Shown here one piece after another: positions 43,818-61,161 of a stretch of DNA of 64,000 nt. Under the pieces are notes generated by a model. The model was not told the origin of the DNA, did not search any database, and saw nothing but the letters and a program-made list of their open reading frames with translations. The position numbers and the translations under genes are program-made. Numbering within the stretch: the first letter of the stretch is position 1; every line of letters begins with the position of its first letter. The DNA comes from Deltaproteobacteria bacterium (lineage in GTDB: Bacteria > CG2-30-53-67): positions 1-64,000 of the forward strand of contig JAADIO010000032.1 in NCBI GenBank assembly GCA_013151235.1, given 5' to 3'.

Positions 43818-43857
43818 TGATTTCCCGATCATTCAGTTTTCCATGTGTTGCGGAAAC

Positions 43858-43886: not shown

Positions 43887-43892
43887 CGGATT

Positions 43893-46397
43893 ATGGGGTT
43901 GACAATGCACCATCAGTCGGGCCGGCTTCTGGAGATCCTGGACAGTCTGAATATTCCGCTCCTTCTTCTGGATTCCTCCGGCAAAGTGAAGTCCCACAAC
44001 GGTATGGTCGAGGAGATCTTCGGGTATTCCTCCGCCGATCTGATCGGTCTTCCCTCGAATAACCTGATTGCACGATTCATAGCGTCCGAAAGTCCGGTCG
44101 GCGTCTCCTCTTCGTCCCCCGATCCTTTCCATGCAGATCTTTCTTCCCCCCTGCAACGGGAGGTGACCTGCCGGAGAAAAAACGGTGGGGAATTCCCCGC
44201 ACAGGTGACTTTCATCCCCTGGGGGGACGGGACCTTCCGGTTGATGGCGGTTCAGGATGTCTCCGGTCAACGGCGTCTGGAACAGCGTGCCACCCAGCGG
44301 ACCAAGGAACTGACTCTCTTTAATACCTTCGCAGAGATCTTAAGCCGCGGTGGAAAACCCCGCGCGCTCCTGCAGGAGACCGTCGATATGCTTCCCGGGA
44401 TCTTGGGGATTAAGGCCGCGATGATTCACCTACAGGATCAAGAGACCGGGAATCTTGTCCCCGCGGCCCGGCAGGGATTTGACGCTTCCTTTCTGGCTTC
44501 GGTAGGGGAGGTGGAACCGGGACAGGGGTTGTTCGGGAAGGTCCTGACCTCCGGGCTGCCTCTCCTCGTGGAGAAGGCCTCCGAGGATCCCCGAACGCTC
44601 AATTTTGATCTGCATCAGAGCGGTCTTCAAAGCTTTGCCTCCGTACCGGTTTCTTCAAAAGGCGCCGTCCGGGGGGTCCTGACCGTGGCGAGCCGGCGGG
44701 TCTCCTCTTTTACCGCCATGGACATGCAACTTCTTGATGCCCTCGGGAGCCAGTTGGGGATCGCCATTGAGAATGCGGAACTGATTGCCCAGCTCAAAGA
44801 GAAGATGAACCAGATCGCCCTGACCAATGAATTGAGCGGGACGATCAATTCCAGCCTGAGTATCGGCACGATCTTCCGGATGATGGTTTCGGAAATCCGG
44901 AAGTTGATTGAATACGACCGTGCCGGCCTCTTGCTCTACGATGAGAAGAAGGGGAACCTGTTGATCTTCGCCCTCGATACGGGGCTGAAGACGGAGATGA
45001 CCCGGGGGGTTAAGGCACCCATCGAGGGGACCTCGGCCGGTTGGGCCTTAAAGCATAACCGGCCATGGATCAATCGGGACCTGCTCTCGGAGATGCTCTT
45101 CCCGCTAGACGGAAAGCTGCGCGACGAGGGGATTCGCTCGACTATCAGCATTCCTTTGACCCAGGAGAAGAGGCTCGGCGTATTCAACCTCGATAGTCGG
45201 GAGGCGGCAAAGTATTCGGAAACGGATCTGCAGATCCTTCTGCCGGTGGCGAAACAGATCTCCATCGCGCTGGAGAATGCCCTCCTCTTCGAGGAGATCT
45301 CGAGGGAAAAGAAGGAGTGGGAGAAGACCTTTGATGCATTTACGGACATGGTTTGGATCGACGATCATCGTCAGCGGATCCTTCGGGCGAATCAAGCCCT
45401 GCTCCAGGGGGCAGAGGTGACCATGGCGGGGCTTTCGGACCTCCATTGCGCGAATCTGCTCGACCGGCTCGGCGTCGGTCCTTCCTGTCTGTGCTGCGAG
45501 ACCGTAACCACGCAGCGCCAGACCTTCCGGGAGGTTCATGGGCGAGAGGGAAAGATCTTCCATTTCTGGGCTTATCCTCTCCTCGACGATGAGGGACAGC
45601 TCTATGCCGTCCTTCACTATCTCAAGGATGTGACGGAACGCAAAAGGCTGGAACAGCAGCTTCTCCGGGCGGACAAGCTTGCTTCCCTGGTGACGCTGGT
45701 GGCGGGAATCGCTCATGAGATCAACAACCCGCTCGGGATTATCGCCGGTTATGCCGAGGCCCTCCTTGATCGTGCCGGAGATCCTGCTCTTCGGGGGATG
45801 GAAGCCTTTGAGGATTTTCCCGAGTATCTGGATACCATCCACAAGGAGATCTTTCGCTGCAAGGAGACCCTGGGAAGTCTCCTGGAGTTTGCCCGGCCCC
45901 ACGGGAGAAAGTCCCGGGAACTCGATATCAATGAACTGCTCAAAGAAGTGATCCTCCTGGTGAATCACAAGGCCAAACGTCTTCACTGCCGGATTGAGCA
46001 TCAGCTCAACCGGGAACTGCCGAAGATCTGTGCCGAACCGGGGAGTCTGCGACAACTCTTCATGAATATCATCATTAATTCCCTCTACCATACGCCGGAA
46101 GGGGGAAAGATCGAGATTACGACGGAACTCAACCGGAACGATCCGAAAGAGATGATCCAGGTGGCGATTCGTGACACCGGTCCGGGGATCCGACACGAGG
46201 TGATCGACAAGATTTTTGATCCCTTCTTTACGACCAAACCGGTCGGGGAGGGGACCGGATTGGGGCTTTCCATCTGTCACAAAATTGCAGAGGAACACAA
46301 CGGGGTGATCGATGTCGAAAGTGAGGTCGGCCGCGGCACGACCTTCTTTATCAAGCTGCCTGCGAAAGGGAACCATGGCCCGGATACTTGTCGTTGA
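43893..46397 (+). CDS. PAS/GAF sensor histidine kinase
   Basis: The predicted protein is 834 residues. In order it has a PAS domain ([22 protein letters not shown]), a GAF domain ([16 protein letters not shown] ... [10 protein letters not shown]), a second GAF ([25 protein letters not shown]), a short PAS with cysteines ([22 protein letters not shown]), then HisKA with the phosphorylated His608 in [12 protein letters not shown] and an HATPase with [34 protein letters not shown]. No membrane helix, so it senses a cytoplasmic signal. Its end overlaps the regulator by 23 bases. The start is set by the promoter; a GTG at 43845 would fall upstream of the predicted transcription start. Confidence 0.87.
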
Positions 46398-47739
46398 CGA
46401 CGAAGAACCCTTTCGTCGCCTGCTGAAAAAAGAACTGACCCGGAAAGGGTTTTCCGTTGAGGTGGCCCCGGAAGGGGAAACGGCGCTGAAACTTTTGAAG
46501 GAGAGTGTCTTTGATCTGCTTCTCCTCGATGTTCTGATGCCGGGACTGGACGGAATTTCCGTGATGAAACGGCTGCGTAAGGACCCGACGGCGCCGCCGG
46601 TGATCGTCTTGACGGGGAAGGCCACGATTGAAACGGCGGTCGAGGCGATGAAGAACGGCGCCTATGACTATCTGACGAAACCCTACAAGCTTGATGAGTT
46701 GGAAATCGTCATCAACCGAGCCTGTGAATTCGGGAATTTGAAACACAAAAGCCGGGTACTTGAGCAGGAGCTGGTTCGAAAAGAATCCAAGGTTGAATTT
46801 ATCGGGGAAAGCCCGCAGTTCCAGGCGATTTTGACGCTGATTCGCAAGATCGCCCCCACCGACTCCACGGTTCTTATCCAGGGGGAAAGCGGCACCGGCA
46901 AGGAGTTGGTGGCGAATGCCATCTGGCATCACAGCCGTCGGAATAATCTGCCTCTTATCGCCCTGAACTGTGCCACCCTTTCCGAAACCCTCATGGAATC
47001 GGAACTTTTCGGACATGAAAAAGGCGCCTTTACCACGGCTTACCGGACCAAGTACGGTATCGTAGAGGTTGCCGATAAGGGGACCCTCTTCCTGGATGAG
47101 GTGGCCGAGATGCCGATGGGACTCCAGGCCAAGCTCCTCCGCTTTCTTGATCGGGGGGAGTTCCGTCGTGTGGGCGGAAACAAGACCTTGCAGGTCGATG
47201 TCCGGATGATTGCTGCGACCAACAAGAATCTGGAGGAACGGGTTCGGCGGAAAACCTTTCGGGAAGATCTTTTCTATCGCCTCCATGTGATTAATATCAA
47301 GATTCCGCCGCTTCGCGAACGTCCGGAGGATATCCGGGACATTGCCCTTCATTTTGCCAAACAATATTCCCGCAAAATAGGAAAGTCGGTCTGGAAGATT
47401 GACGCCGATGCCCTGGGGATTCTCCGGCGTTATGCCTGGCCGGGAAATGTTCGGGAGCTGGAAAATGAAATCGAGCGGAGTGTGATCCTCTGTGAAGGCG
47501 AGGCGATCGGTGTCCACGACCTTTCGATCGCCGATCGGGTTGCAACGCCCACCTCCGGGACGCAGCCGATGCTGGAGGAGATCGAGAAGGAGTGTATCCT
47601 CAGGGTCCTCCGGGAGACCGGCGGCAACCAGACCCGGGCCAGCAAAATCCTCGGCATCAACCGTAAAACCCTCTACCTAAAACTTCGCAAATACGGTGCA
47701 CTTACATCGCAGGATAGCGAGATTCCCCCTGAGGTATAG
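46375..47739 (+). CDS. Sigma-54-dependent response regulator (NtrC family, GAFTTA variant)
   Basis: The 454-residue regulator has a receiver domain (acidic Asp8-Asp9, phosphoacceptor Asp52 in LLLLDVLMPG, Lys102), an AAA+ domain with Walker A GESGTGKELVANAI, Walker B GTLFLDEVAE and arginine-rich LFYRLHVINIKIPPLRERPEDI, and a C-terminal Fis-type helix-turn-helix (GGNQTRASKILGINRKTLYLKL). The sigma-54-contacting loop at residues 217-222 reads GAFTTA instead of GAFTGA. It pairs with the kinase by a 23-base overlap and should drive sigma-54 promoters such as those at 35634, 37284 and 47844. Confidence 0.93.
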   Translation: MARILVVDDEEPFRRLLKKELTRKGFSVEVAPEGETALKLLKESVFDLLLLDVLMPGLDGISVMKRLRKDPTAPPVIVLTGKATIETAVEAMKNGAYDYLTKPYKLDELEIVINRACEFGNLKHKSRVLEQELVRKESKVEFIGESPQFQAILTLIRKIAPTDSTVLIQGESGTGKELVANAIWHHSRRNNLPLIALNCATLSETLMESELFGHEKGAFTTAYRTKYGIVEVADKGTLFLDEVAEMPMGLQAKLLRFLDRGEFRRVGGNKTLQVDVRMIAATNKNLEERVRRKTFREDLFYRLHVINIKIPPLRERPEDIRDIALHFAKQYSRKIGKSVWKIDADALGILRRYAWPGNVRELENEIERSVILCEGEAIGVHDLSIADRVATPTSGTQPMLEEIEKECILRVLRETGGNQTRASKILGINRKTLYLKLRKYGALTSQDSEIPPEV

Positions 47740-47843: not shown

Positions 47844-47859
47844 TGGCATGGGATTTGCT
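47844..47859 (+). promoter_or_regulatory. Putative sigma-54 promoter of the corrinoid/coenzyme M operon
   Basis: TGGCATGGGATTTGCT has -24 TGGCA and -12 TTGCT with exactly ten bases between GG (47845-46) and GC (47857-58). It is almost identical to the promoter at 37284 (20 of 22 positions over the surrounding block). The predicted start near 47870 is only 3 bases before the ATG at 47873. A TTTGGGAAA segment at 47786-47794 resembles half of the 37138 repeats. Confidence 0.75.
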
Positions 47860-47872
47860 GTTCTATTACGGT

Positions 47873-48235
47873 ATGAACGATATCCTTTTATGCTCATCGG
47901 ATCCGATCTTCATAAAGAATCTCTACGGGATTCTCCGGGAGGACGGTTACCGTGTCGATATTGCCGGCCATGCGTCTATGGCCGTCCGGATGGTTTTTGA
48001 AAAGAGTTTTGCAGCGGTGATCCTCGATTCCGATGCTGTCGGTATGTCTTCGGGGGAGGCTGCACGTATCATTTTGAGAGTCATCTCGGGGATCCCTGTA
48101 ATTCTTGCAGGGGAAAGTCTGTTACCCGAGGGGGCGTTTTCGATCAGCAAACCTCTGGATCTGGAGGAGGTCCTGGAGGTTCTTCGAACCGTTCGTTTAA
48201 TTCATTTTCCGGAAAGGAGTGTGAGCGGCCTATGA
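47873..48235 (+). CDS. Degenerate receiver-domain protein at the head of the corrinoid operon
   Basis: The 120-residue protein MNDILLCSSDPIFIKNLYGILREDGYRVDI follows the receiver fold throughout: the phosphoacceptor-type Asp in AAVILDSDAVG, the Thr/Ser position in PVILAGES and the Lys in SISKPLDLEEVLEVLRTV. The usual acidic pair near the start is replaced by SSD, so phosphorylation may be weak or absent. No output domain. I start at the ATG at 47873 because it matches receiver N-termini; a frame to 47828 would run across the promoter. Its end overlaps the methyltransferase start as ATGA. Confidence 0.65.
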   Translation: MNDILLCSSDPIFIKNLYGILREDGYRVDIAGHASMAVRMVFEKSFAAVILDSDAVGMSSGEAARIILRVISGIPVILAGESLLPEGAFSISKPLDLEEVLEVLRTVRLIHFPERSVSGL

Positions 48236-49263
48236 CACCACGAGAGATTATTTTGCAGGCCTTTGAAGGGGGGAAGCCCGAGCGGGTGCCGGTTTCTCTC
48301 TTCGGTGCCGGCATGTGGAGCATCAAGAGTTTTGAAAGCAGTTTCGAGGAGTTGTCGACCGATGCAGCGAAGATGTCGGATATGTTGGTGACCCTGTCGG
48401 ACAAACTGTTGTGTGATATTGTCTATGCCGGCTCCGGGTACAACAACTTTCACGCCGCTGCGTTCGGCGGGGAGATCAAGTTTCGTTCCATGGGAGCGCC
48501 GGATCTGAAGGAACATCTCGTTTCCTCCGTGGAGGACATTGAAAAATTTGATCTATCGGCGCTCGACAATGAAGCGACCCTCAATATCGTCAAGGATGCC
48601 CTGCATCGTACACGGGAACAGATCGGTGACAAATATGTGGTGAGCATGACGGCCTGGGGACCCTTTACCCTCGGGGCACGTTTCGTCGGGGAAGAGACGA
48701 TGATGAAGGCGACCTTCAAGAATCCCGACCTGGTCCACCGGGTCACTGATTTTGCAACGGACCTTCTGATCCATCTTTATGAACCCCTGGTTGATGACGG
48801 GACGCTGGAAGTGATCAGTCTGGCCGATCCGACGGCCTCGGGGGACCTGATTTCCCGCAAGCAGTTTGAAAAGTTTGCCGTTCCCTACCTGAAAAAGTTT
48901 ACCGACTGGGCCAGATCGAAGAAGGCGTATACCCTCCTGCACATTTGCGGGAATACGACGGACCGCCTGGATGTGATGCCCGGGACCGGGGCGAGCTGTA
49001 TCAGCCTGGATCACAAAACCGATATCGGGAAGGCCTATGAGGCACTCCACGGAAGGATCTGTTTTGCCGGCAATGTGGATCCTGTCGGTGTCATGCTTCA
49101 GGGCTCGGTCGACGATGTGGAGAGGGCCTGCCGGGAGGTGATCGAAAGGGCCGGCACGGAGGGGGGGTTCGTTCTCATGCCGGGATGCGATATTCCGCCG
49201 ACCGTCCCTTATGAAAATATTCGGAAATTCATCCAGGTCGCGCGGGAGTGGAAATTGACATAA
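48232..49263 (+). CDS. MtaA/UroD-superfamily corrinoid:coenzyme M methyltransferase-like protein 1
   Basis: The 343-residue TIM-barrel protein keeps the zinc ligands of MtaA/MtbA-type methyltransferases: His237 and Cys239 in LLHICGNTT and Cys319 in MPGCDIPPTVP. The TPREIILQAFEGGKPERVPV start and GNVDPVGVMLQGS segment are also typical. Such enzymes activate a thiol, in archaea coenzyme M, to accept a methyl group from a methyl-corrinoid protein. Uroporphyrinogen decarboxylase itself lacks the HxC...C set. The next genes encode the corrinoid protein and coenzyme M synthesis, which supports this role. Confidence 0.85.
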   Translation: MTPREIILQAFEGGKPERVPVSLFGAGMWSIKSFESSFEELSTDAAKMSDMLVTLSDKLLCDIVYAGSGYNNFHAAAFGGEIKFRSMGAPDLKEHLVSSVEDIEKFDLSALDNEATLNIVKDALHRTREQIGDKYVVSMTAWGPFTLGARFVGEETMMKATFKNPDLVHRVTDFATDLLIHLYEPLVDDGTLEVISLADPTASGDLISRKQFEKFAVPYLKKFTDWARSKKAYTLLHICGNTTDRLDVMPGTGASCISLDHKTDIGKAYEALHGRICFAGNVDPVGVMLQGSVDDVERACREVIERAGTEGGFVLMPGCDIPPTVPYENIRKFIQVAREWKLT

Positions 49264-49416
49264 GGCGAAGAGGGGGTAGTAAGTCCGTGTTGTTCAGGTC
49301 CCATTGACCTTGTGAGAGAGGGGGTTGTGATGGGTACATTCTGGGAAAATCTCAAAAATATGTTTGTGCGGACTGTTCCTCCGGGAGCAGCCGGGCAATC
49401 GCAGAAAGGAGCTGCC

Positions 49417-49863
49417 ATGGCTGACGAAAAGAAGATGACGCTGGAAGAAGTAAATCAGTATATGCAGGAAAAGTGCGGGTTCGTGCCGAGGATGTTCAAG
49501 ATTATCAATACCGTGACGCCGGAGCCCGGCCGAACCTTTGCCGATTTCTACGCGAGCATTTTCGGGGAGGGCGCACTTTCCAAGAGCGTCAAGGAATTGA
49601 TGTTCATGTCCGGTGGTGTCGCCTACTGTTCGCCTCGCTGCATCATTCATGTCGTACCGGCGATCAATGCCGGTGCAACGTCGGAACAGGTCTTCGAGGC
49701 GGCGTCCGTCGGGATGATCCTGGCCGGTTTTGTCCCGAACGGTCCGGGAATTCCCTATGCCTTTGAATATGCCTTGAAGTGCATTGACATCGACACGAAG
49801 TTCCGGAAGGGCGAGGAGTGGGAATACCTGCCGCCCCCGAAATTTGATCACGGGATTTACTGA
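49417..49863 (+). CDS. Carboxymuconolactone decarboxylase/AhpD-fold protein
   Basis: The 148-residue protein has an all-helical AhpD-like pattern: LSKSVKELMFMSGGVAYCSPRCIIHVVPAINAGATSEQVFEAASVGMILAG. The cysteines are spaced C-x3-C-x2-H rather than the usual C-x2-C-x3-H. The ATG at 49417 has AAAGGAG at ideal spacing; a GTG at 49312 and an ATG at 49330 (after GAGGGGG) would add up to 35 residues. Its place between two methyltransferase genes suggests a redox or accessory role in corrinoid or thiol chemistry. Aromatic degradation is not supported by neighbours. Confidence 0.7.
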   Translation: MADEKKMTLEEVNQYMQEKCGFVPRMFKIINTVTPEPGRTFADFYASIFGEGALSKSVKELMFMSGGVAYCSPRCIIHVVPAINAGATSEQVFEAASVGMILAGFVPNGPGIPYAFEYALKCIDIDTKFRKGEEWEYLPPPKFDHGIY

Positions 49864-49872
49864 GCGCTTCAG

Positions 49873-49916
49873 CCGCGGGAGGGGGGAATCCCCCCTCTTT
49901 TGCCCCCCTCCTGCGG
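49873..49916 (+). terminator. Nested, mutually exclusive hairpins inside the corrinoid operon
   Basis: GAGGGGGG-AAT-CCCCCCTC (49879-49897) is followed by TTTT. The same 5' arm can instead pair with a second CCCCCCTCC downstream, giving a 14-bp hairpin from 49873 to 49916 followed by ATTTT. Either form could stop transcription between the AhpD-like and MtrH-like genes; the two cannot form together. Confidence 0.6.
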
Positions 49917-49949
49917 ATTTTACCCATTTTTAATTTAAGGATGATACAT

Positions 49950-50912
49950 ATGTTCACCTTTGAAACGGAACAAAAGGTTTGCAAGATCGGCGGATTAAAG
50001 GTTGGAGGCCGACCGGCGGAAAATCCCCCTCTCCTGATTGCCTCCATGTTTCATAACAAGGACCGAATCCTGCAGGATCGTAAAGGGAATTTCGACCGCG
50101 TCCGGGCGACAGAACTGATCCGGAAGCAGGAAGAGCTGACCGAAGCCACCGGCATTCCCGGTATGGTGGCCATGATGGCCAATTCCGCCGGGGAAGCAAA
50201 GATCTATATCGATTTCTTTGTGGAAACCACCGACATGCCCTTCGCCATCGATATGTGGGTTGCCGAGAAACGGATGGCCGCGACGGAATATGTGGCGAAG
50301 TTAGGTCTGCAGGACCGGTTTGTCTATAACAGTATTACCCCCTGGGACAAGGACATTCCGGGGCAGGTGCAGCGGGTCAAAGAGCTCGGCATCAAACACG
50401 TATTTGTCCAGGCCTTTGATGATGCCGATCAGTCTCCGAAAGGACGGCTGACCTCATTGGAAAAATTGCTTGATCAGGGAGCGGGTGATTTCGAGTCGGT
50501 CCTTGTCGATTCCTCGGTGATGAATCTTCCCGCTGCCTCTTTCTCCATGCTGGCAAACCGGATGATCAAAGAGAAGTTAGGGCTCCCCTGCGGAAGCGCC
50601 TATTCCAATGGCACCCACATGTGGAAAGAGGCCAAGGAGATCTGGGGGCTCGACGGTTTCAAGGCGATGGATGCTGTGGCCCAGGGGATGTCGACGGCCC
50701 TCTGGTCGGATTTTAATTTTTACGGTCCCATCGTGACGGCGCCCCGGATCTTCCCCGGTGTGGCCACGGCAAACATCCTGCTTTCGACCCTGGTCTTTGA
50801 TGAAACCGGGGAGGTCTCGGAAAATGAAGACCTGCCGATCCGGAAGCACTTTTCGGAATTTCTTGAGAAGATGATCGCCGGTGGTGCAAGAAAAAAGGCG
50901 CAGGCCCGATAA
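49950..50912 (+). CDS. MtrH-family tetrahydrofolate/pterin:corrinoid methyltransferase-like protein
   Basis: The 320-residue protein shows the MtrH family pattern: FETEQKVCKIGGLKVGGRPAENPPLLIASMFHNKDRI, a long TIM-barrel-like core with VAMMANSAGEAKIYIDF, VDSSVMNLPAASFSMLANRMIKEKLGLPCGSAYSN and NFYGPIVTAPRIFPGVATANILLS. In methanogens MtrH moves methyl between methanopterin and the corrinoid of the Mtr complex; soluble bacterial homologues use tetrahydrofolate. No membrane Mtr subunits are near. AAGGA sits 9 bases before the ATG at 49950, so I reject the ATG at 49941. Confidence 0.87.
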   Translation: MFTFETEQKVCKIGGLKVGGRPAENPPLLIASMFHNKDRILQDRKGNFDRVRATELIRKQEELTEATGIPGMVAMMANSAGEAKIYIDFFVETTDMPFAIDMWVAEKRMAATEYVAKLGLQDRFVYNSITPWDKDIPGQVQRVKELGIKHVFVQAFDDADQSPKGRLTSLEKLLDQGAGDFESVLVDSSVMNLPAASFSMLANRMIKEKLGLPCGSAYSNGTHMWKEAKEIWGLDGFKAMDAVAQGMSTALWSDFNFYGPIVTAPRIFPGVATANILLSTLVFDETGEVSENEDLPIRKHFSEFLEKMIAGGARKKAQAR

Positions 50913-50945
50913 TCGATAACCCTAATATCAGAAGGAGAAAACGTT

Positions 50946-51968
50946 TTGACGGAAACCATGACATCAAGAGAACGGGTACTGAGACTGTTTCGGGGGGAAC
51001 CGACGGATCGTCCGGCCTGTTTCAGCGGGATGGGTAATGCGACAACGGAAGGGCTGAACCAGCTCGGCTACAAGTTTGCCCAGGTTCATCTCGATGCGAA
51101 ACAGATGGCGGAGACGGCCATGACGACGCCCCGGCTTTTCGGGTTTGACGCCTGCGTCCTTCCGTTTGACCTCTGTGTCGAAGCGGAAGCGATGGGCGCA
51201 AGGATCAATACCTATTCGAACTCGGACGACCTGCTCTATCCCACGATCAAAGAGAAGGTAATCCATGGCGAAGAGGAGATGGAGATCAACCTCCCCTCCG
51301 ACCTGGTCACGCGCGGGCGGATCCCCCTCATGAAGGAGGCGATCGGGATCGCCAGGGAAACCATCGGAGAGACCGTGGCGATCGGTTCTTACCTGCTCGG
51401 ACCGTTTACGCTCGCCGGTCAGATCATGGAACTGAACGATCTGCTGAAACTTTCTTTCAAGAAACCGGACAAGGTCGGGAAACTTCTGGCCGATCTGACC
51501 TGCGTGATCGTGGCGGTTGCGAAGGAGTATGAAGCGGCCGGTGTTGACTACCTGACGGTACGGGAGATGGGTGCAACCTCCGACGTGTTGAGCCCCAGGG
51601 TTTTCAAGAGCCTGATACTGCCCCATCTCAAGAATATTTTCGAACAGATCAGTGTTCCCAGTGTGCTGCATATCTGCGGCAAGACGAACAACATCGTCGT
51701 TCCGATGGTGGAAACGGGTGCGACGGCCATCAGTGTTGACCAGAAGAATGATGTGGTCGACAGCCGGAAAAAGCTCGGATCCGATGCCCTGATTTTCGGG
51801 AACTACGACCCCTATAACGTGCTTGTTTCGGGTACGCCGGAACTGGTCAAAGAGGCGATGCAAAAGTGTTTGGAAGACGGCGTCAGTGCCGTCTGGCCCG
51901 GCTGTGATATCTGGCCCACGGTGCCGGCGGAGAATTTTAAGGCCATGATGGAAACCATGAATGAATAG
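50946..51968 (+). CDS. MtaA/UroD-superfamily corrinoid:coenzyme M methyltransferase-like protein 2
   Basis: The 340-residue protein is a distant paralogue of the one at 48232. It keeps the zinc set His242 and Cys244 (VLHICGKTN) and Cys320 (VWPGCDIWPTVP), with YLLGPFTLAGQIMELNDLLKLSFKKP and TVREMGATSDVLSPRVFKSLILPHLK. The start is a TTG with AGGAG 8 bases upstream; the ATG at 50958 is spaced too far. Two copies with the full metal set suggest distinct methyl donors or a division of labour between methyl acceptance and donation around one corrinoid protein, which starts 14 bases downstream. Confidence 0.86.
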   Translation: MTETMTSRERVLRLFRGEPTDRPACFSGMGNATTEGLNQLGYKFAQVHLDAKQMAETAMTTPRLFGFDACVLPFDLCVEAEAMGARINTYSNSDDLLYPTIKEKVIHGEEEMEINLPSDLVTRGRIPLMKEAIGIARETIGETVAIGSYLLGPFTLAGQIMELNDLLKLSFKKPDKVGKLLADLTCVIVAVAKEYEAAGVDYLTVREMGATSDVLSPRVFKSLILPHLKNIFEQISVPSVLHICGKTNNIVVPMVETGATAISVDQKNDVVDSRKKLGSDALIFGNYDPYNVLVSGTPELVKEAMQKCLEDGVSAVWPGCDIWPTVPAENFKAMMETMNE

Positions 51969-51982
51969 TCAGGAGGCATGGA

Positions 51983-52678
51983 ATGGCAACTGAAGAGAGA
52001 ACCCGGGAAATCCTGGAGAAAATGGAGAAAGCCGTGATTGAGTATGACGAAGATGCGGCCAAGGAGGGTGCCCAGGCGGCCCTCGATGAAGGGGTCAATC
52101 CCAATGATGCCATCTTCGACGGTCTGGTCAGCGGGATGCAGGAAGTCGGCAAGCTCTTTGAGGCCGAAGAGTATTTCGTCCCGGAGCTGCTCATGTGCGC
52201 CGATGCCCTTTATGCCGGTCTCGATATCTTAAAACCCCATGTGAAACAGCTCGACCTGGGGGTGAAAGGCTCGGTGGTGATCGGTACCGTGGAGGGAGAT
52301 GTTCACGATATCGGGAAGAACATCGTGAAGATGATGTTCGATGTCGCCGGGTTTGAGGTCCATGACCTGGGACGGGATGTGCCGCTGGATCAGTTTGTTG
52401 AGGAACAGATCAAAACCGATTCCGAACTGGTCTGCCTCTCCGCCATGATGACGACGACCATGATGGGGATGCAGAAGGTCATCGAGGACCTGAAGAAGAA
52501 GAATCCCGATATCAAGATCATGATCGGCGGTGCTCCCGTTTCCGGTGATATCGCCGAGAAATGGGGAGCGGACGGCTATGCCGATGACGCGACCAATGCC
52601 CTCGCAGATGCCATCAACATGGTCAGCTCTCTGAAAAAGATGAAGGAAGAAGCGGAAGCCAGGGAAAAACGGAAGTGA
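51983..52678 (+). CDS. Methyltransferase corrinoid protein (MtbC/MttC/MtaC-like)
   Basis: The 231-residue protein has an N-terminal four-helix cap (AIFDGLVSGMQEVGKLFEAEEYFVPELLMCADAL) and a Rossmann-like B12 domain with the base-off/His-on motif Asp106-x-His108-x2-Gly111 (GTVEGDVHDIGKN), then VCLSAMMTTTM and IGGAPVSGDIAEKWGADGYADDA. It should carry methyl-cobalamin between MtrH-like and MtaA-like partners, encoded on both sides. GGAGG lies upstream. Its stop overlaps the next GTG start as GTGA. Confidence 0.95.
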   Translation: MATEERTREILEKMEKAVIEYDEDAAKEGAQAALDEGVNPNDAIFDGLVSGMQEVGKLFEAEEYFVPELLMCADALYAGLDILKPHVKQLDLGVKGSVVIGTVEGDVHDIGKNIVKMMFDVAGFEVHDLGRDVPLDQFVEEQIKTDSELVCLSAMMTTTMMGMQKVIEDLKKKNPDIKIMIGGAPVSGDIAEKWGADGYADDATNALADAINMVSSLKKMKEEAEAREKRK

Positions 52679-53340
52679 GCAGTGCATTCTTGAAAAAGAT
52701 GCTCCTCGGTTCCGGGGCGACCGTGGTGGGTGTGGCGGAACTGGATGCGTATCTTGACGGAGAGATCCGTCATCTCAACCGAGGGGTTTCCATCGCGGTG
52801 GACCGGACGCTTCGGGAAGATACCCTGAAACATCTGGGCCGGCTGCAGAAAAAAGTGGTCCGCTATCTGAAAGGGAAGGGATTCCGTACCCTCAGTATCC
52901 CCCCTGATTCGGACCGCATCCGGAATAAGTTTGTTGCCGAACTTTATTCCCTTTTGACCCACAAGATGGCAGCCACCTGCGCGGGGATCGGCTGGATCGG
53001 GCGGAATGGGTTACTGATCAGTCCCCATTTCGGGCCGCGGCTTTCCCTGGCGACGGTCCTGACCGATGCGCCCCTGAAGAGCGATATTCCCTATGAACAG
53101 AGCCGTTGCGGCAATTGCCGGCTTTGTGTTGACTACTGCCCGTCGAAGGCGATCACGGGCAAAACCTGGTCCCGGCGGGACCCTTACAGCGGCCTGGTCA
53201 AGCCCCACCGGTGTCGTGTACACAAAGAGGGGGCCCGGGGAGTGACGGATCGGCCCAATTGCGGTCTCTGCCTGCAGATCTGCCCCTACGGGCGGGCGAA
53301 AGGGAGGACCAAACCGAAAGATGTTATGGAGATTGTATAA
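52675..53340 (+). CDS. Ferredoxin-type [4Fe-4S] protein with QueG-like fold region
   Basis: The 221-residue protein has two cysteine groups: Cys145/148/151 and Cys155 (CGNCRLCVDYC) and Cys196/199/203 (CGLCLQICPYG). Before them is a QueG-like stretch (HKMAATCAGIGWIGRNGLLISPHFGPRLSLATVLTDAPL). QueG reduces epoxyqueuosine with cobalamin, but in this operon a role in electron delivery for reductive activation of the corrinoid is more likely. The GTG start overlaps the corrinoid protein's stop, and the activating ATPase follows after 2 bases. It is shorter than true QueG. Confidence 0.8.
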   Translation: MSSAFLKKMLLGSGATVVGVAELDAYLDGEIRHLNRGVSIAVDRTLREDTLKHLGRLQKKVVRYLKGKGFRTLSIPPDSDRIRNKFVAELYSLLTHKMAATCAGIGWIGRNGLLISPHFGPRLSLATVLTDAPLKSDIPYEQSRCGNCRLCVDYCPSKAITGKTWSRRDPYSGLVKPHRCRVHKEGARGVTDRPNCGLCLQICPYGRAKGRTKPKDVMEIV

Positions 53341-53342
53341 AG

Positions 53343-55319
53343 ATGAGCAGCAAATATAAAGTGAATTTTCAGCCCTCGGGAAGTCGGGGGGAAGTGGATG
53401 CAGGGAAAACCCTCCTTGATGCGGCCCAGCGTTTAGGGGTTGATCTGGAATCAGTCTGTGGCGGCAAGGGGACCTGCGGGAAATGCAAGGTCCGTGTTGA
53501 GGAAGGATATTTTGAAAAAGATGCCATGGAATCAAGAATGTCCCATCTGTCTCCTCTGACGGACGTGGAACGCAAATTCATCAAACCGGAAGACGGACCC
53601 CGAATGCGTTTGGCCTGTGCCGCCGAGGTGCGGGGGGATGTGAAACTTTTCGTGCCGGAAAAGTCCCGTGCCGGGAAACAGATCGTTCGCAAGGCCGCAA
53701 AAGATATTACGATCGCCCTCGACCCCGCCGTGAAAAAATATTGTATCCGGCTGGATGCCCCGACCCTGCACGATCTTTCCAAGGGGGATCTTGAACGGAT
53801 TCTGGGGGCGCTGAAAATGGAGTACAACCTGGAAAACCTTGCCATAGACTATCTGGTCCTCCAGAAGCTCCAGGATATTCTTCGGGCCGGGAACTGGGAG
53901 GTGACGGTTTCGGTCTGGAAAGGCAAAGAGATCATCAAGGTGGAGCCGGATTTTGTGGACGTCTCCTACGGTCTGGCCGTGGATGTCGGGACGACGACGG
54001 TGGCAGCCTATCTGTGTGATCTGAACACGGGCAAGGTGCTTAACACCGAATCGATGATGAATCCCCAGGTCCCGTACGGCGAAGATGTCATGTCGAGGAT
54101 TACTTACGCCATGACCCATGACGACGGTCTTGCGATCATGCAGAAGGCAATCATCGAGGGCTTAAACGATCTGATTGAGAAGATTACCGCCGACATCCGT
54201 TCCAACGGAACGCCCGGCGGTACCTCCATCGTCGATATGACGGTGGTTTTTAATACCGCCATGCATCACATCTTCCTGGGATTCAACCCGGTCTACATCG
54301 GACGGTCTCCCTTTATTCCTGCCGTGCAGGATTGTGTTGATCTCAAGGCACGGGATCTGGGACTTCAAATCAATGAAGCTTCCTACATTCATGTCCTTCC
54401 CATTGAGGCCGGTTTTGTCGGCGCCGACAATGTGGGGGTTCTCATCGCCGAAGAGCCGTACAATTCCGAGGACAATGTCCTGATTATCGACATCGGGACG
54501 AACGGTGAACTCCTCCTCGGGAACAAGCATGCGGTCTGTTCCACTTCCTGCGCTACGGGACCGGCCTTTGAAGGGGCCCAGATCAAGTTCGGAATGCGAG
54601 CCGCCCCGGGAGCGATTGAAAAGGTCCGGATCGATCCGGAGACGAAAGAGCCACAGTACAAGGTGATCGGCAAGGCCGACTGGCATACCCATATCAAGGA
54701 TGTCAATGCCAAGGGGATCTGCGGTTCCGCCATCATCGACGTGATTGCCGAGATGTTCAAGGCGGGAGTCATCGACAAGTCCGGGAAATTCGTCAAGGAT
54801 CTTGACATACCCCGCATCCGGAAGGATGCCGACGGCAAACCGGAGTACGTCCTGGCCTGGGCGGATGAAACCTCCATCGGGAGCGACATCACCGTGACGC
54901 AGGGGGATGTCCGGGCGTTGCAGCTCGCCAAGGGGGCACTCTACGCCGGGGCGAAACTGATGATGCAGAAGATGGGGATCGAAAAACTCGACCGGGTGGT
55001 TCTGGCGGGGGCCTTCGGGAGTCATATCAATACGGAGGCCTCGATGACCCTCGGGATGTTCCCCGATTGTGCCATCGAAAAGGTCTATGCCGTGGGGAAT
55101 GCCGCCGGCGACGGGGCGATCATGGCCCTGCTGAACCTGGGGAAACGACGTGAGGCCGGCGAAAAGGCCCGGTGGGTCCGGTTCCTGGAGATTGCCGTGG
55201 AGCCGGAATTTGAAAAGGAATTCATGAAGGCGATGCATATTCCGCACATGAAGGATCCTTTTCCCAATCTCAAGTCGTTGCTGGAGAAGGACCATTTGCC
55301 GGTGACGATCAAGGGGTGA
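53343..55319 (+). CDS. Corrinoid-activating ATPase (RACo/RamA-like, ASKHA domain with [2Fe-2S])
   Basis: The 658-residue protein has an N-terminal [2Fe-2S] ferredoxin domain (Cys39, Cys45, Cys48 and Cys92 in CGGKGTCGKCKVRV and ACAAEV) and a large DUF4445-type actin-fold domain (YGLAVDVGTTTVAAYLCDL, LIIDIGTNGELLLGNKHAVCSTSCATGPAFEGAQIKFGMRA, VVLAGAFGSHINTEASMTLGMFP). This is the arrangement of proteins that use ATP to drive low-potential reduction of inactive Co(II) to Co(I). It starts at the ATG at 53343. With the ferredoxin-type protein upstream it should keep the corrinoid protein at 51983 active. Confidence 0.93.
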   Translation: MSSKYKVNFQPSGSRGEVDAGKTLLDAAQRLGVDLESVCGGKGTCGKCKVRVEEGYFEKDAMESRMSHLSPLTDVERKFIKPEDGPRMRLACAAEVRGDVKLFVPEKSRAGKQIVRKAAKDITIALDPAVKKYCIRLDAPTLHDLSKGDLERILGALKMEYNLENLAIDYLVLQKLQDILRAGNWEVTVSVWKGKEIIKVEPDFVDVSYGLAVDVGTTTVAAYLCDLNTGKVLNTESMMNPQVPYGEDVMSRITYAMTHDDGLAIMQKAIIEGLNDLIEKITADIRSNGTPGGTSIVDMTVVFNTAMHHIFLGFNPVYIGRSPFIPAVQDCVDLKARDLGLQINEASYIHVLPIEAGFVGADNVGVLIAEEPYNSEDNVLIIDIGTNGELLLGNKHAVCSTSCATGPAFEGAQIKFGMRAAPGAIEKVRIDPETKEPQYKVIGKADWHTHIKDVNAKGICGSAIIDVIAEMFKAGVIDKSGKFVKDLDIPRIRKDADGKPEYVLAWADETSIGSDITVTQGDVRALQLAKGALYAGAKLMMQKMGIEKLDRVVLAGAFGSHINTEASMTLGMFPDCAIEKVYAVGNAAGDGAIMALLNLGKRREAGEKARWVRFLEIAVEPEFEKEFMKAMHIPHMKDPFPNLKSLLEKDHLPVTIKG

Positions 55320-55329
55320 GACGTCGAAA

Positions 55330-55647
55330 ATGACCCGTGTGAAAATCGACCCGGGCGTCTGTGGTTTTCCCGCTCTCGTGACGGTCGAAAAAAAGGACAG
55401 GCAGCACTTTCGGGTAACGATCGAGTCCAATTGTGAAATGGTACGGAAATTGGGAGAGGAAATTGCATCCCTGACGATGCAGGATGCCTTCATCCGGTTT
55501 TCCGATAACCGGGTCTATGAGAAGGCCTCAACCTGTCTGAAACACACGGCCTGTCCGGTCCCGTCGGGCATCCTGAAGGCCCTGGAGGTTGAGGCCGGTC
55601 TGGCGGTGCCGCGGAACGTAACGGTGGAATTTCTTGCCGGGGAGTGA
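55330..55647 (+). CDS. DUF6951-like small protein
   Basis: The 105-residue protein MTRVKIDPGVCGFPALVTVEKKDRQHFRVTIESNCEMVRKLGEEI resembles DUF6951-type proteins found beside corrinoid methyltransferases. It has four conserved-looking cysteines: CGF, SNCEMV and the pair in STCLKHTACPVPSGILKALEVEAGL. Function unknown; metal or cofactor handling is a guess. It starts 10 bases after the ATPase gene and overlaps a GTG alternative start of the cysteate-synthase gene. Confidence 0.75.
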   Translation: MTRVKIDPGVCGFPALVTVEKKDRQHFRVTIESNCEMVRKLGEEIASLTMQDAFIRFSDNRVYEKASTCLKHTACPVPSGILKALEVEAGLAVPRNVTVEFLAGE

Positions 55648-55652
55648 CAGTG

Positions 55653-56909
55653 ATGAGCGACTATCTTCTGCATTGCCGGAAATGCGGTGCTCTTTTGCAG
55701 CCGCAAGAGTCCGCTTCCGGGGTTCATTGTCCCGATGCCTTGATGAAAAGTGAATTTCCCGACCGGCGGTTCCGCCTTGAGGGGCGTCGGGGGATCTGGC
55801 GCTTCAACTGGCTTCCGGTGCATGCACCCCGTGAAGATACCGCCGCACCGGTGGTTTATCACGCGGAGGGGCTGGGGCGGCGTCTTGGACTTCGGCATCT
55901 CTTTGTCGTATTCAACGGTTTCCGGCCGGAAAAGGGGGCGGAGATCGAGACCTGTACCTTCAAAGAGTTCGAGGCCGAGGTTGTTCTGCAAAACGCACGG
56001 GAACTTGGAAAGGGCGGCCTCGTCGTCGCCTCGGCGGGGAATACCGCCCGCGCCTTTGCCCACCTTTCGATTCGGACCGATTTCCCCGTGTTCATTGTGG
56101 TTCCACGCATGTGTCTTCATGAGATGTGGTTTCTGAAGTCGAAGGAGTCCGTTCCGACGGCTGTCCTGCAGGACGGTGACTATGCCGACGCCATCGATGT
56201 GGCCGAGCGGATCGCCCGGATTTCAGGTATTCCCTTCGAAGGAGGGGTACGCAATTCGGCCAAGCGGGACGGACTCGGTGTCGTACTGATGGAAGCGGTC
56301 TCCTTCCTCGGCCGCCTGCCCGATGCCTATTTTCAGGCAGTCGGGAGCGGCGCCGGGGCGGTGGCCACCTGGGAGATGGCGGAACGGTTTTTGCGGGACG
56401 GCCGTTTCGGGAACCGGCTTCCCCGTCTCCACCTGGCACAGAATCTCCCCTTTGCACCCATGTTTCATGCCTGGAGACGGGGGGAACGGAATCTGAAACC
56501 TGAGGACCTTGATCCGGGCCTGATTGAGAAGATTTCCACCCGGGTTCTGTCCAGTCGTTATCCCGCCTATTCGATTCTGGGGGGGGTCTACGATGCCTTG
56601 ACGGCATCCGGGGGGAACATGTACGGGATTACCAACGGAGGGATGGCCGAGGCCCGGACGCTCTTCGAAGAAACGGAAGGGGTCGATATCGTTCCCGCGT
56701 CGGCCATTGCCCTGGCGGCACTGAAAGAGGCCGTAGCGGCGGAAGAGGTCTCTCCCGACGAGCTGATCCTGCTCAATATCACCGGGGGTGGGGAAAGGGC
56801 CATCCGGCGTGCGGGACGTGCCGTCCCGGTGGCGGGAGACGCAATCTCGAAAAATATTACGGATGATGAAATCGAAGAACTTTTATGCACAGTCCTGAAA
56901 AAGAGCTGA
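55653..56909 (+). CDS. Cysteate synthase-like PLP enzyme (threonine synthase paralogue)
   Basis: The 418-residue protein has an N-terminal zinc-ribbon-like part (Cys8, Cys11, Cys26), then the PLP-lysine region FNGFRPEKGAEIETCTFKEFEA with Lys104, the phosphate/cofactor loop VVASAGNTARAFAHLS and a late GITNGGMAEARTLFEE and LNITGGGERAI. The NGF/Y-x-PEKGA segment before the lysine marks cysteate synthases, which make L-cysteate from phosphoserine and sulfite as the first dedicated step of coenzyme M synthesis in some methanogens. The ATG at 55653 has GGGGAG 8 bases upstream. Its end overlaps the sulfopyruvate decarboxylase start by 25 bases. Confidence 0.82.
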   Translation: MSDYLLHCRKCGALLQPQESASGVHCPDALMKSEFPDRRFRLEGRRGIWRFNWLPVHAPREDTAAPVVYHAEGLGRRLGLRHLFVVFNGFRPEKGAEIETCTFKEFEAEVVLQNARELGKGGLVVASAGNTARAFAHLSIRTDFPVFIVVPRMCLHEMWFLKSKESVPTAVLQDGDYADAIDVAERIARISGIPFEGGVRNSAKRDGLGVVLMEAVSFLGRLPDAYFQAVGSGAGAVATWEMAERFLRDGRFGNRLPRLHLAQNLPFAPMFHAWRRGERNLKPEDLDPGLIEKISTRVLSSRYPAYSILGGVYDALTASGGNMYGITNGGMAEARTLFEETEGVDIVPASAIALAALKEAVAAEEVSPDELILLNITGGGERAIRRAGRAVPVAGDAISKNITDDEIEELLCTVLKKS

Positions 56910-58021
56910 TTTCGATTCTGAAAGGGGCGGGCGTCGATCTTCTAGCGACCCTTCCCTGTGACCGGGTGCGCAACCTGATCGCCCTTGCGGATGCATCGAT
57001 TGACCGCATCCCTCTGACCCGGGAAGAAGACGGCGTCGGGATTTGTGCCGGAGCGGCCCTGGGCGGGCGGCGGCCGGCCATGATTGTTCAAAGCTCCGGG
57101 ATCGGCAATATGATCAACGCCCTTCTCTCCCTGACCGGATTCTATGAACTTCCCTTGGCACTTTTCGTCAGTCAGCGGGGAGTCTATAAGGAGGGGATCG
57201 ACGCCCAGGTTCCGATGGGCAAGGTCCTGCCGGGGCTTTTTGAATCCGTGGGGATCGGTTACACTCTGATCGACCGGTCCGAAGCGATCCCCGCCATCGG
57301 GAAGGAACTGGAGTCTCTCTACCGGGAGAAACGGATCCATGCTTTCCTGCTCAGCCCGGCCCTCTGGGAAGGCTCCCCCCTGGAGATTTCCCAGAGCCTC
57401 AAACGCCGCCATTGTGAAGCGATCGATCCTGAACGGGGTCGGGAGAATCCGGCCCCGGTCCTGACCCGCTATGGGGTCCTTTCGACCCTCTGTCCCGAAC
57501 TGGAAGGGCAGGCGGTGATCTGCAATCTGGGGGTCCCGTCGAAGGAACTTCATGCCCTCCTTCCCCAACCATCGAATTTCTACATGCTGGGCAGCATGGG
57601 ATTGGCGACGCCCATCGGTCTCGGTGTGGCCTTCTCAACGGACAAACCGGTTTTCGTCATTGACGGGGACGGCAGTCTGCTTATGAATCCCGGGACCCTG
57701 GCGACGGTCGCCATGGCCCGACCGGGGAACCTGACCATTATTGCTGTTGACAATGCCTCCTACGGTTCCACGGGGGATCAACCGACCCTGACGGCCGGTT
57801 GTGTCGATCTGGAACTGGTGGCCCGTGGATTCGGTATCTGTAACTCTGTGAAGGCTGCGTCCCGGGAGGAGCTGCGGGAGGCGTTGCAGACCCCCTTCGG
57901 CGGTGCCCTCTTTGTCCATGCCCTTGCCCTGCCCGGAAATGCCGCCGTCCCCAATATCCCCCTGGGTGCCCGGGAGATCAAGGAGGGGTTCCAGGCGTTC
58001 CTGGAATCCGGGAGGTTATAG
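56885..58021 (+). CDS. comDE: Fused sulfopyruvate decarboxylase (ComD-ComE) for coenzyme M synthesis
   Basis: This 378-residue TPP enzyme joins both subunits. Residues 1 to about 165 are ComD-like: LLATLPCDRVRNLI, Glu48 in TREEDGVGICAGAALGGRRPAMIVQSSGIGNMINAL. Residues about 190-378 are ComE-like, with the Mg-TPP motif GDGSLLMNPGTLA (261-273) completed by DNASYGSTGDQP. It should convert sulfopyruvate to sulfoacetaldehyde, a precursor of coenzyme M. The preceding gene would supply cysteate; the transaminase between the two is not in the window. It ends close to convergent btuD. Confidence 0.88.
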   Translation: MHSPEKELISILKGAGVDLLATLPCDRVRNLIALADASIDRIPLTREEDGVGICAGAALGGRRPAMIVQSSGIGNMINALLSLTGFYELPLALFVSQRGVYKEGIDAQVPMGKVLPGLFESVGIGYTLIDRSEAIPAIGKELESLYREKRIHAFLLSPALWEGSPLEISQSLKRRHCEAIDPERGRENPAPVLTRYGVLSTLCPELEGQAVICNLGVPSKELHALLPQPSNFYMLGSMGLATPIGLGVAFSTDKPVFVIDGDGSLLMNPGTLATVAMARPGNLTIIAVDNASYGSTGDQPTLTAGCVDLELVARGFGICNSVKAASREELREALQTPFGGALFVHALALPGNAAVPNIPLGAREIKEGFQAFLESGRL

Positions 58022-58056: not shown

Positions 58057-58896
58057 TCAAGGATCGGGGAGACGGCCACCGTCCGGAGTTGAAAAGTGAT
58101 CGGGGTTTTTCCGATACTTTTCCGGGATGGTTGCGATCCTCGGTACCGGGCTCAAGGGGTATTGATCGACCAGCAGCGTGCAGCCGTAACTCTTCCGTAA
58201 TTGTTCCGCCGTCAAGACCTCTCCGGGGCGTCCGGTCTTTTCAATTTCCCCCTCCTTCAGAAGAAGAAGGCGGTCTCCGTAGAGGGCCGCCAGGTTCAGG
58301 TCATGGGAAATCATGATCACCGTGATCCGCCGGGTGCGGCGGAGCCGTTCCATCAGATCCATAATGCGGGATTGGTGGGAAGGATCGAGGGAGGCCGTCG
58401 GTTCATCGAGAAAGATGATCCGGGGTTGCTGGCAGATGGCCCGGGCGATCATGACTCGCTGCCGTTCTCCGCTGCTTAACTGATCCAGCCGTCTTTCCGC
58501 CAGGTGTGTAATGTCGGTAAAGTGCATCGCCTCTTCGGCAATTCGGTAATCCTCACGTTTTTCCATGCTCCAAAGCCCGAGATGAGGAGAGCGGCCCATC
58601 AGGACCGTTTCCGTAACGGGAAAGGGGAAATCAAGGGGGACCTGCTGTGGGACCACGGCGAGAAGACGGGAGAGGGATCGCCGTGAATAATGATGAAGCG
58701 CTTTGCCCAGAATGTTAATCTCCCCCCTTTGCGGCTGGATCATGCCGGCGCAGGCCTTGAGTAGTGTGGTTTTTCCCGCGCCGTTGGGGCCGATGATGAT
58801 GAAGAATTCCTCCTCCGGGACGTGGAAGGTGAGCCCGTGAAGAATCCCTTTATGTGCATAGTCGAGATGGAGGTTTTCGACGGAGAGGGCGGTCAT
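58057..58896 (-). CDS. btuD: Corrinoid ABC transporter ATPase
   Basis: The 279-residue ABC ATPase has Walker A GPNGAGKTTLLKA, the signature LSSGERQRVMIARAI, Walker B RIIFLDEPTASLD and switch His in VIMISHDLN. Its ATG overlaps the permease stop as ATGA (58893-58896). The FecE/BtuD family also imports iron chelates, but the cobalamin riboswitch upstream of the operon shows that the substrate is a corrinoid. The C-terminal 35 residues extend past the usual end. Confidence 0.92.
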   Translation of the reverse strand: MTALSVENLHLDYAHKGILHGLTFHVPEEEFFIIIGPNGAGKTTLLKACAGMIQPQRGEINILGKALHHYSRRSLSRLLAVVPQQVPLDFPFPVTETVLMGRSPHLGLWSMEKREDYRIAEEAMHFTDITHLAERRLDQLSSGERQRVMIARAICQQPRIIFLDEPTASLDPSHQSRIMDLMERLRRTRRITVIMISHDLNLAALYGDRLLLLKEGEIEKTGRPGEVLTAEQLRKSYGCTLLVDQYPLSPVPRIATIPEKYRKNPDHFSTPDGGRLPDP

Positions 58897-59900
58897 TGGT
58901 TTGCTCTCCAGAGAAGGTAGACAAAGAGGGGCGCTCCGATCATGGCCGTGATGATTCCCACGGGCATTTCCCCTCCGACCGACAGGATGCGTGCCAGGAG
59001 GTCGCAGAGAATCAGGTAGGTTGCCCCCCCCAGGATGGAAGCGGGGATCAGCAGGCGATGATCCGGTCCCAGCACCAGCCGCAGGAGGTGCGGAATCACC
59101 AGTCCGACGAATCCCACCAGGCCGGACTGACAGACCACCAGGCTGACCATCAACGACGTCAGGACCAGGAGAACCAGGGTGACGGTTTTGACATTTACCC
59201 CCATGGAGAGAGCGCTTTCCTTTCCCATTACGAGGAGATTCATCGGACGGGCCAGCAGAAAGATGACCAGGAAACAGAGCAGGATCGGAAAGAGGACCGG
59301 CAGTTGCCGGGTGCTGACCCGGGAGAGATCTCCCATCAGCCAGAAGAGAATCTGTTGGACCTGTTCGGATCGGGTAATCGAGATCAGGAAGAGAATGACG
59401 GCGGCGCAGAAGGCATTCATCATGACGCCTCCGAGGAGCAGTGCATCCCTGCTCTGCCGGGGCCGCCCCATGACGAGCAGGAGGATCAGGCCCAGGACCG
59501 CCATACTGCCGGTGAAGGCCGCCAGGGGGACTCCCGGAAAAGGGGAAAGCCCGGCCAGCAGCCCGCCGATCGCCCCGATTGCCGAACCGCCCGAAATGCC
59601 GAGGATGTAGGGTTCGGCCAGGGGGTTTCGCAGGAGTGCCTGAAAAACCAGCCCGCCGAGGGAGAGGGTGGAACCGACGGCGGCTGCCAGGATGACCCGG
59701 GGAATCCGGATGCGCCGGATGATGGTGGCGGCGATTGAGTTCTGATCTCCGTAGCCGGCCAGGATGGCGAGAGTCCCGGACAGGTCGCTGCCGGAAGAGC
59801 CCATGGAGACGCCGAGGAAGGCCGCGATCATCAGCAGTGTGCCGAAGAAGAGTGTGATCGTGATGAGCTTCCGGGGGAGAGGATGGAACCTAACGTTCAT
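58893..59900 (-). CDS. btuC: Corrinoid ABC transporter permease
   Basis: The 335-residue permease has the FecCD/BtuC pattern of about ten membrane helices: RIPRVILAAAVGSTLSLGGLVFQALLRNPLAEPYILGISGGSAIGA and VGLVIPHLLRLVLGPDHRLLIPASILGG. I place the start at the ATG at 59900 (MNVRFHPLPRK), with an AAGGGAAG ribosome-binding site and an 11-base overlap with btuF. A frame to 60008 would add 36 residues inside btuF. Part of the riboswitch-controlled operon. Confidence 0.93.
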   Translation of the reverse strand: MNVRFHPLPRKLITITLFFGTLLMIAAFLGVSMGSSGSDLSGTLAILAGYGDQNSIAATIIRRIRIPRVILAAAVGSTLSLGGLVFQALLRNPLAEPYILGISGGSAIGAIGGLLAGLSPFPGVPLAAFTGSMAVLGLILLLVMGRPRQSRDALLLGGVMMNAFCAAVILFLISITRSEQVQQILFWLMGDLSRVSTRQLPVLFPILLCFLVIFLLARPMNLLVMGKESALSMGVNVKTVTLVLLVLTSLMVSLVVCQSGLVGFVGLVIPHLLRLVLGPDHRLLIPASILGGATYLILCDLLARILSVGGEMPVGIITAMIGAPLFVYLLWRANQ

Positions 59901-60927: not shown

Positions 60928-60991
60928 GATGTCCCTTTTTATCCACAGAACCGGTCGGTGAATCTCTGACCTCGAAGATTCGGCCGCTCAT

Positions 60992-61150: not shown

Positions 61151-61161
61151 AAAATATCCGA

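Follow-up and report, generated by a model that had tools for sequence, protein, structure and literature searches.

Can a bacterium use coenzyme M (CoM), a cofactor described chiefly in methanogenic archaea, as a methyl carrier? This question is raised by an operon at positions 47873-58021 of the window, i.e. the whole stretch of 64,000 nucleotides analysed here (positions 1 to 64,000 of contig JAADIO010000032.1, assembly GCA_013151235.1). This operon associates genes for CoM synthesis with genes for corrinoid-based methyl transfer, and it is reasonably probable that it encodes a CoM-dependent module which exchanges S-methyl groups through a corrinoid and itself provides most of the synthesis of its thiol cofactor. 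The window belongs to a 2.62-Mb genome (73 contigs, 99% complete). The operon consists of 11 intact plus-strand open reading frames (ORFs) in the same direction, which overlap or are separated by short gaps throughout (the largest, about 80-90 bp, precedes mtrH). An initial annotation had announced ten closely spaced plus-strand genes; its gene list was right, but there are 11 ORFs, beginning with the receiver-like one at 47873, and the CMD/AhpD-like and DUF6951 proteins had been left unnamed. The proteins, listed below in gene order, were assigned to families by comparing Pfam and NCBIfam profile scores with curated cut-offs.

47873..48235, plus strand: short receiver-like protein encoded by the first operon gene (PF00072 21 bits, Pfam cut-off 30.2; kept in relatives)
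48232..49263, plus strand: MtaA1, first UroD-superfamily zinc methyltransferase, with HIC...PGC ligands (PF01208 208 bits)
49330..49863 (alternative start 49312), plus strand: CMD/AhpD-like protein (CMD) with an invariant CSPRC motif (PF02627 24 bits)
49941..50912 (ATG 49941 or 49950), plus strand: MtrH-family methyl-corrinoid:tetrahydrofolate methyltransferase (PF02007, NF002142)
50946..51968 (TTG 50946 or ATG 50958), plus strand: MtaA2, second UroD protein, candidate methyl-corrinoid:CoM methyltransferase (MtaA-family models)
51983..52678, plus strand: CorC, MtbC/MtgC-like, B12-binding methyltransferase corrinoid protein (PF02310, PF02607; TIGR02370 212 bits, cut-off 215)
52675..53340, plus strand: QueG/reductive-dehalogenase-like double [4Fe-4S] protein, ferredoxin-type (Fd; PF13484; TIGR00276/TIGR02486 partial)
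53343..55319, plus strand: RACE, corrinoid reductive activase of the RACE/AcsV type ([2Fe-2S] and ASKHA; PF14574, PF17651, PF17650, PF00111)
55330..55647, plus strand: DUF6951 protein (PF22263 113 bits; C11, C35, H72 and C75 invariant in the alignment)
55644..56909, plus strand: predicted cysteate synthase (CS), L-phosphoserine and sulfite to L-cysteate (TIGR03844, PDB match, trees)
56885..58021, plus strand: predicted fused sulfopyruvate decarboxylase ComDE, sulfopyruvate to sulfoacetaldehyde (TIGR03845, TIGR03846, tree)

The last two genes, which overlap by 25 bp, are those of CoM synthesis. The pyridoxal phosphate (PLP) protein encoded at 55644..56909 is assigned as a cysteate synthase, an activity predicted from its scores: it exceeds the equivalog cut-off (TIGR03844, 448.7 vs 324.9 bits) and, among solved structures, matches cysteate synthase 9k3c with 301 bits vs 52 bits for a threonine synthase. 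For ComDE, the alpha half is over the cut-off of its model (TIGR03845, 179 vs 148 bits) and the beta half just under (TIGR03846, 206 vs 221.5 bits); the protein is also under the cut-off of the phosphonopyruvate decarboxylase model (TIGR03297, 191 vs 312 bits). Both identities had been proposed initially and are borne out by trees built without archaeal CS or ComDE sequences: the PLP protein falls among cysteate synthases, including 9k3c, and is split from threonine synthases (100/100), and the thiamine pyrophosphate protein ComDE is split from phosphonopyruvate-decarboxylase-like proteins (100/100).

Relatives of both proteins occur separately elsewhere. Homologs of CS are carried by the Streptomyces plasmids NZ_CP108366.1 (L116) and NZ_CP109493.1 (L138), the L116 protein passing TIGR03844 (395.9 bits), and genome G306 encodes a ComDE-like protein over the alpha cut-off (L114:9594-10745), with no CS match over the cut-off in that genome.

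The candidate for the methyl transfer to and from CoM is MtaA2. It passes subfamily models of the MtaA family (NF004889, 256 vs 244 bits; TIGR01463, 239 vs 235 bits) and falls short of the MtaA equivalog model (NF040654, 242 vs 400 bits); it is therefore filed as MtaA-like, not as MtaA itself. By sequence and by fold, its closest solved structure is the methylcobalamin:CoM methyltransferase MtaA of M. mazei (4ay7; TM-score 0.93, vs about 0.83 for UroD). MtaA1 misses the MtaA/CmuA family model (TIGR01463, 176 vs 235 bits). Hence, of the two MtaA-type zinc methyltransferases first announced, both are UroD-family proteins but only the second (50946-51968) passes MtaA-family cut-offs. In trees, MtaA2 and MtaA1 form separate clades, each with its own orthologs (each 100/100). 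The zinc ligands of MtaA2 (H242, C244, C320) are invariant in 13 aligned sequences, and the His-x-Cys...Cys set is retained in both UroD-type proteins and in all MtaA2 orthologs. As this set has been tied to sulfur/selenium methyltransferases (PMC10418091), sulfur chemistry is indicated for both proteins, and the substrate of MtaA1, judging from its sequence, is likely a second S-methyl compound.

MtrH exceeds both of its cut-offs (PF02007, 185 vs 22.8 bits; NF002142, 334 vs 287 bits) and matches MtrH (8z9u) and a methylcorrinoid:tetrahydrofolate methyltransferase (6sj8) in the PDB. The activase scores 491 bits with NF040756, below the cut-off of 800, and the QueG-like protein is a probable electron donor for corrinoid activation. 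The QueG-like ferredoxin ORF of the related genome G001 (L022:9329-9703) has only 124 amino acids, possibly because of a frameshift or an assembly error.

Is this association of genes conserved? The window genome (G000) was compared with four related metagenome-assembled genomes (MAGs; G001, G005, G145 and G146) and with distant bacteria, among them G294 and G343. The gene order is unchanged in G005 and G145 and, allowing for contig breaks, in G001 and G146; since the corresponding genes follow one another in the same way in other MAGs, the arrangement is not due to chance. Within the group, orthologs of CS and MtaA2 are both present in G000 and these four MAGs and both absent from G002, G003, G004, G006 and G007. 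In a wider survey of 386 genomes, which is a sample of relatives rather than of all bacteria, CS exceeds its cut-off in four genomes, and an MtaA2 ortholog is found in 4/4 of them. The Fisher values for these searches are 7.7e-8 by genome and 1.9e-4 by family, ignoring shared ancestry and, for the latter, using an approximate count of 254 families.

Two distant bacteria are informative here. In G343, CS (TIGR03844, 427 bits) and ComDE are adjacent, with an SsuA-like gene nearby, and a separate contig carries a QueG-like Fd-MtaA1-MtaA2-CorC-RACE operon in which gene comparison found no MtrH. G294 has the same methyl transfer operon, receiver-MtaA1-CMD-MtrH-MtaA2-CorC-Fd-RACE, which continues with a three-gene ABC importer and then with genes for DUF6951 and for HdrE-like and HdrD-like proteins; its genome yielded no match to CS or ComDE. 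The binding protein of its importer exceeds the SsuA-family cut-off (aliphatic-sulfonate type, 184.7 vs 163.5 bits); a sulfonate-type importer in place of the synthesis genes would be expected of a module that requires a sulfonate thiol. Lone SsuA-like genes are present as well in G146, close to these genes, and in G001, downstream of them. The initial suggestion of a methyl-CoM metabolism outside methanogens thus gains genomic support, as the gene association is found again in other genomes, one of them distant.

The host is a bacterium whose close relatives belong to the candidate phylum CG2-30-53-67: the MAGs that share these genes bear the titles bacterium or Nitrospirae, one of them being named CG2-30-53-67. 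As the initial annotation had suggested, the operon lies among bacterial genes, on a 77-kb contig. No match to McrA (PF02249) was found in ten genomes, i.e. the window genome and nine of its group and neighbours. In the window genome, genes of the AcsC/D/E type and for CODH form an ACS/CODH operon, and dsrAB has been reported in CG2-30-53-67 (PMC10591310, PMC11406059).

On these grounds, the following model can be proposed for the module. CS would convert phosphoserine and sulfite to cysteate, a general aminotransferase would convert cysteate to sulfopyruvate, and ComDE would yield sulfoacetaldehyde. CoM would be completed by a COG1900-type sulfurtransferase encoded at another locus (the genome does have L-ASST/HcyBio) or by sulfide chemistry. 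Once made (or imported), CoM would be the thiol partner of MtaA2, which would exchange methyl groups between CH3-S-CoM and the corrinoid protein, while MtrH would exchange them between the corrinoid protein and tetrahydrofolate (THF) and MtaA1 would link a third, sulfur-bound methyl compound. RACE and the ferredoxin-type protein would bring inactive Co(II) back to Co(I). The net result would amount to the reaction of archaeal Mtr in soluble form, operating between methyl-S compounds and the Wood-Ljungdahl pathway. Of the two directions, a flow from methyl-S compounds towards methyl-THF and CO2 seems the more likely: McrA, which would consume methyl-CoM, is lacking in the genomes searched, the genome encodes CODH/ACS, and dsrAB has been reported in relatives. 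What the sequences themselves establish are the identities, order and conservation of the genes, the zinc ligands and the lack of McrA; that CoM is completed and used by MtaA2, the direction of flux and the substrate of MtaA1 are inferred.

Several observations weigh against this CoM-dependent module. The weakest link is the last step of CoM synthesis, for which the operon has no gene: no MMP16/ComF exceeds its cut-off in the genome (TIGR03287, best score 109 vs 364 bits), and this step therefore rests on L-ASST or sulfide chemistry. The locus of G000 that scores best for TIGR03287 is L-ASST/HcyBio (514 bits); L-ASST has been proposed to compensate partially for the loss of the CoM synthase MMP16 (PMC12068725). 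Furthermore, MtaA2-type proteins (50-68% identical) are found in 4/382 genomes without CS (three of family f26, and G294), so that MtaA2 need not imply CoM. Neither MtaA2, which forms its own clade, nor MtaA1 can be confidently grouped with archaeal MtaA. Binding proteins of the SsuA type have various substrates, and the specificity of the G294 importer is putative. Lastly, MtaA1, the corrinoid protein and MtrH, if sufficient to pass methyl groups to folate, leave CoM without an obvious need, and no enzyme consuming methyl-CoM was identified.

DUF6951 was considered as the missing sulfurtransferase. Its fold is predicted to be IscU/SufU-like (model pLDDT 82), and the pattern of C11, C35, H72 and C75 is reminiscent of IscU ligands; Foldseek gave nothing significant, and a VIA Z of about 6 to IscU is under the reliable level of this tool. 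The candidate was rejected because these structural matches are weak and because its presence does not follow that of CS: it is present in G294 without CS and was not found beside the G343 genes. A search of viral contigs for CS and DUF6951 yielded no relatives.

Among the alternatives, the one that survives best is a salvage of methyl-sulfur or methyl-selenium compounds of the mlp type, with sulfide, homocysteine or another thiol as acceptor; CS and ComDE would then be co-expressed and make sulfoacetaldehyde for another sulfonate, e.g. taurine or isethionate. In non-methanogens, bacterial mlp clusters do unite RACE and a corrinoid protein with several MtaA-like proteins, without CoM (Kountz and Balskus, PMC10418091), MtaA1 is placed nearer to bacterial Mlp/CmuA-type proteins than to MtaA (with weak support), and family f26 has MtaA2-MtrH-CorC-RACE operons without CS or ComDE. 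However, the published definition of a true mlp cluster excludes any folate methyltransferase homologue within 20 kb and makes no mention of CoM synthesis genes, whereas MtrH, CS and ComDE all lie inside the operon here. Moreover, CS and ComDE are retained in the operon in five MAGs and recur with MtaA2 in G343, their place is taken in G294 by a sulfonate-type importer, and the operon yielded no candidate for converting sulfoacetaldehyde to taurine or isethionate. This alternative is thus unlikely, even if it deserves to be kept in mind.

A wider scheme would add to the CoM-dependent module a heterodisulfide economy free of methyl-coenzyme M reductase, in which methyl groups pass between folate and CoM, CoM disulfides are reduced by an HdrE/HdrD-like membrane complex in relatives, and methyl-sulfur metabolism is coupled to quinone-based respiration. 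HdrE/HdrD-like genes are located inside the operon of G145 and G294; in G145 they are just ahead of CS, as they are in G146, where they directly precede it at a contig start, across a contig gap. Proteins of this kind act on CoM disulfides in methanogens, and these genes also count in favour of the CoM-dependent module itself. Like HdrDE/DsrMK-type membrane complexes, the pair includes an HdrD-like protein with two intact CCG motifs, together with two cubane motifs. Unlike these complexes, it has TfrB (CoM/CoB fumarate reductase) as nearest named family, below the cut-off. The pair is missing from the window operon and the window genome has only weak HdrE/HdrD homologs, which implies that it is not essential. 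This scheme is considered rather improbable.

An operon for O-demethylation of methoxylated aromatics, with THF as methyl acceptor like the MtoABCD or Mtv systems and with unrelated CS and ComDE, is very unlikely. A similar gene set is known in Methermicoccus (MtrH-type MtoA, demethylase MtoB, corrinoid protein MtoC and activase MtoD; PMC8630106), and CdmB is found among UroD-type methyltransferases. O-demethylases, however, replace one or both Cys (PMC10418091), whereas both UroD-type proteins keep His-Cys-Cys; this reading is disfavoured by these zinc ligands, which point to sulfur substrates, and the MtoABCD set differs from the present one in the CoM synthesis genes as well. Still more doubtful is a CS that serves the synthesis of sulfonolipids (capnine) and not of CoM. 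Chryseobacterium gleum and similar bacteria do employ a cysteate synthase for sulfonolipids (PMC11211663), and the window protein lies at a similar distance from 9k3c and from the G343 protein; yet CS is directly followed by the overlapping comDE and shares its operon with corrinoid methyltransferases, and none of the operon genes was found to resemble that of a cysteate fatty acyltransferase. Finally, contamination by a methanogen or a bacterial methyl-coenzyme M reductase pathway, which names resembling those of methanogen genes might suggest, is hardly credible given the lack of McrA in the ten genomes, the bacterial genes of the contig and the recurrence of the operon in separately assembled bacterial MAGs.

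How does the CoM-dependent module compare with known systems? Every part of the operon has a known relative. As in the Methanosarcina MtaA/MtbA systems with MtaC/MtbC and an activase, it includes a UroD-fold zinc methyltransferase with His-Cys-Cys ligands, a corrinoid protein and a reductive activase, and MtaA2 is nearest to 4ay7; it differs from them in being bacterial, in lacking McrA, in including an MtrH-type folate methyltransferase and in the separate clade of MtaA2. CS and the alpha half of ComDE, over their cut-offs and encoded by adjacent genes, recall the archaeal Type 2 CoM pathway of Methanosarcinales, but they belong here to a bacterial corrinoid methyltransferase operon and no ComF/MMP16 is over cut-off. 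Published bacterial CoM is tied to alkene and epoxide metabolism: Xanthobacter makes CoM, but through other genes and another route, and uses it for alkene/epoxide degradation, not methyl transfer (PMC12068725). In the open-licence literature searched, no account was found of genes for CoM synthesis lying within a corrinoid methyltransferase operon of a bacterium, and an earlier description elsewhere is possible. If the proposal is true, CoM would be a methyl carrier in non-methanogenic bacteria without methyl-coenzyme M reductase, a bacterial use not described before. This would bear on the origin and spread of CoM metabolism, would open another path of methyl-sulfur turnover in bacteria of the subsurface and possibly of hydrothermal sites and would provide a compact gene set for asking which enzyme completes CoM synthesis.

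The operon is flanked by the following elements.

43845..46397, plus strand: histidine kinase (PAS/GAF/HisKA/HATPase; Pfam), upstream of the operon
46312..47739, plus strand: sigma-54-dependent response regulator of the NtrC type (receiver, AAA+, Fis HTH; PF00158, PF00072, PF02954), just upstream
47844..47859, plus strand: putative sigma-54 -24/-12 promoter TGGCATGGGATTTGCT (TGGCAT-N5-TTGCT, one mismatch), preceding the first gene
58057..60855, minus strand: convergent ABC importer (PF00005, PF01497) made up of an ATPase (58057-58896), a probable permease (58893-60008, judged from its ORF sequence alone) and a binding protein (59890-60855)
60980..61166, minus strand: cobalamin riboswitch (RF00174 104.7 bits, gathering threshold 31.5), directly upstream of the convergent importer, outside the operon

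The histidine kinase is probably a regulatory partner of the operon; a comparable kinase/regulator ORF pair, judged from position and first residues only, is close to the operon in G146. The sigma-54 site was not found at the operon in G145, G294 and G343 and is kept in G001, G005 and G146 (0-1 mismatches, -28 to -30 from the first gene). The convergent importer, a neighbour outside the operon, probably serves cobalamin. Within the operon, the CMD/AhpD-like protein shows 75-93% identity over six genomes.

Other corrinoid gene clusters were encountered in this comparison. G005 harbours on contig 9 (22-62 kb; L079, L080) a second corrinoid cluster that includes MtaA1-like, MtaA2-like and third UroD proteins, a corrinoid protein, RACE, CMD, DUF1638, HdrE/HdrD-like and CbbQ/vWA proteins, a LarC2-like nickel-insertion protein and a 589-amino-acid protein without Pfam or NCBIfam match. 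In family f26 (L134:1303-3632, L136:2350-4681, L135:14865-16703), a LarC2-like protein (Pfam, L134) and/or a similar unassigned protein of about 600 amino acids is encoded beside RACE-MtrH-MtaA2-CorC.

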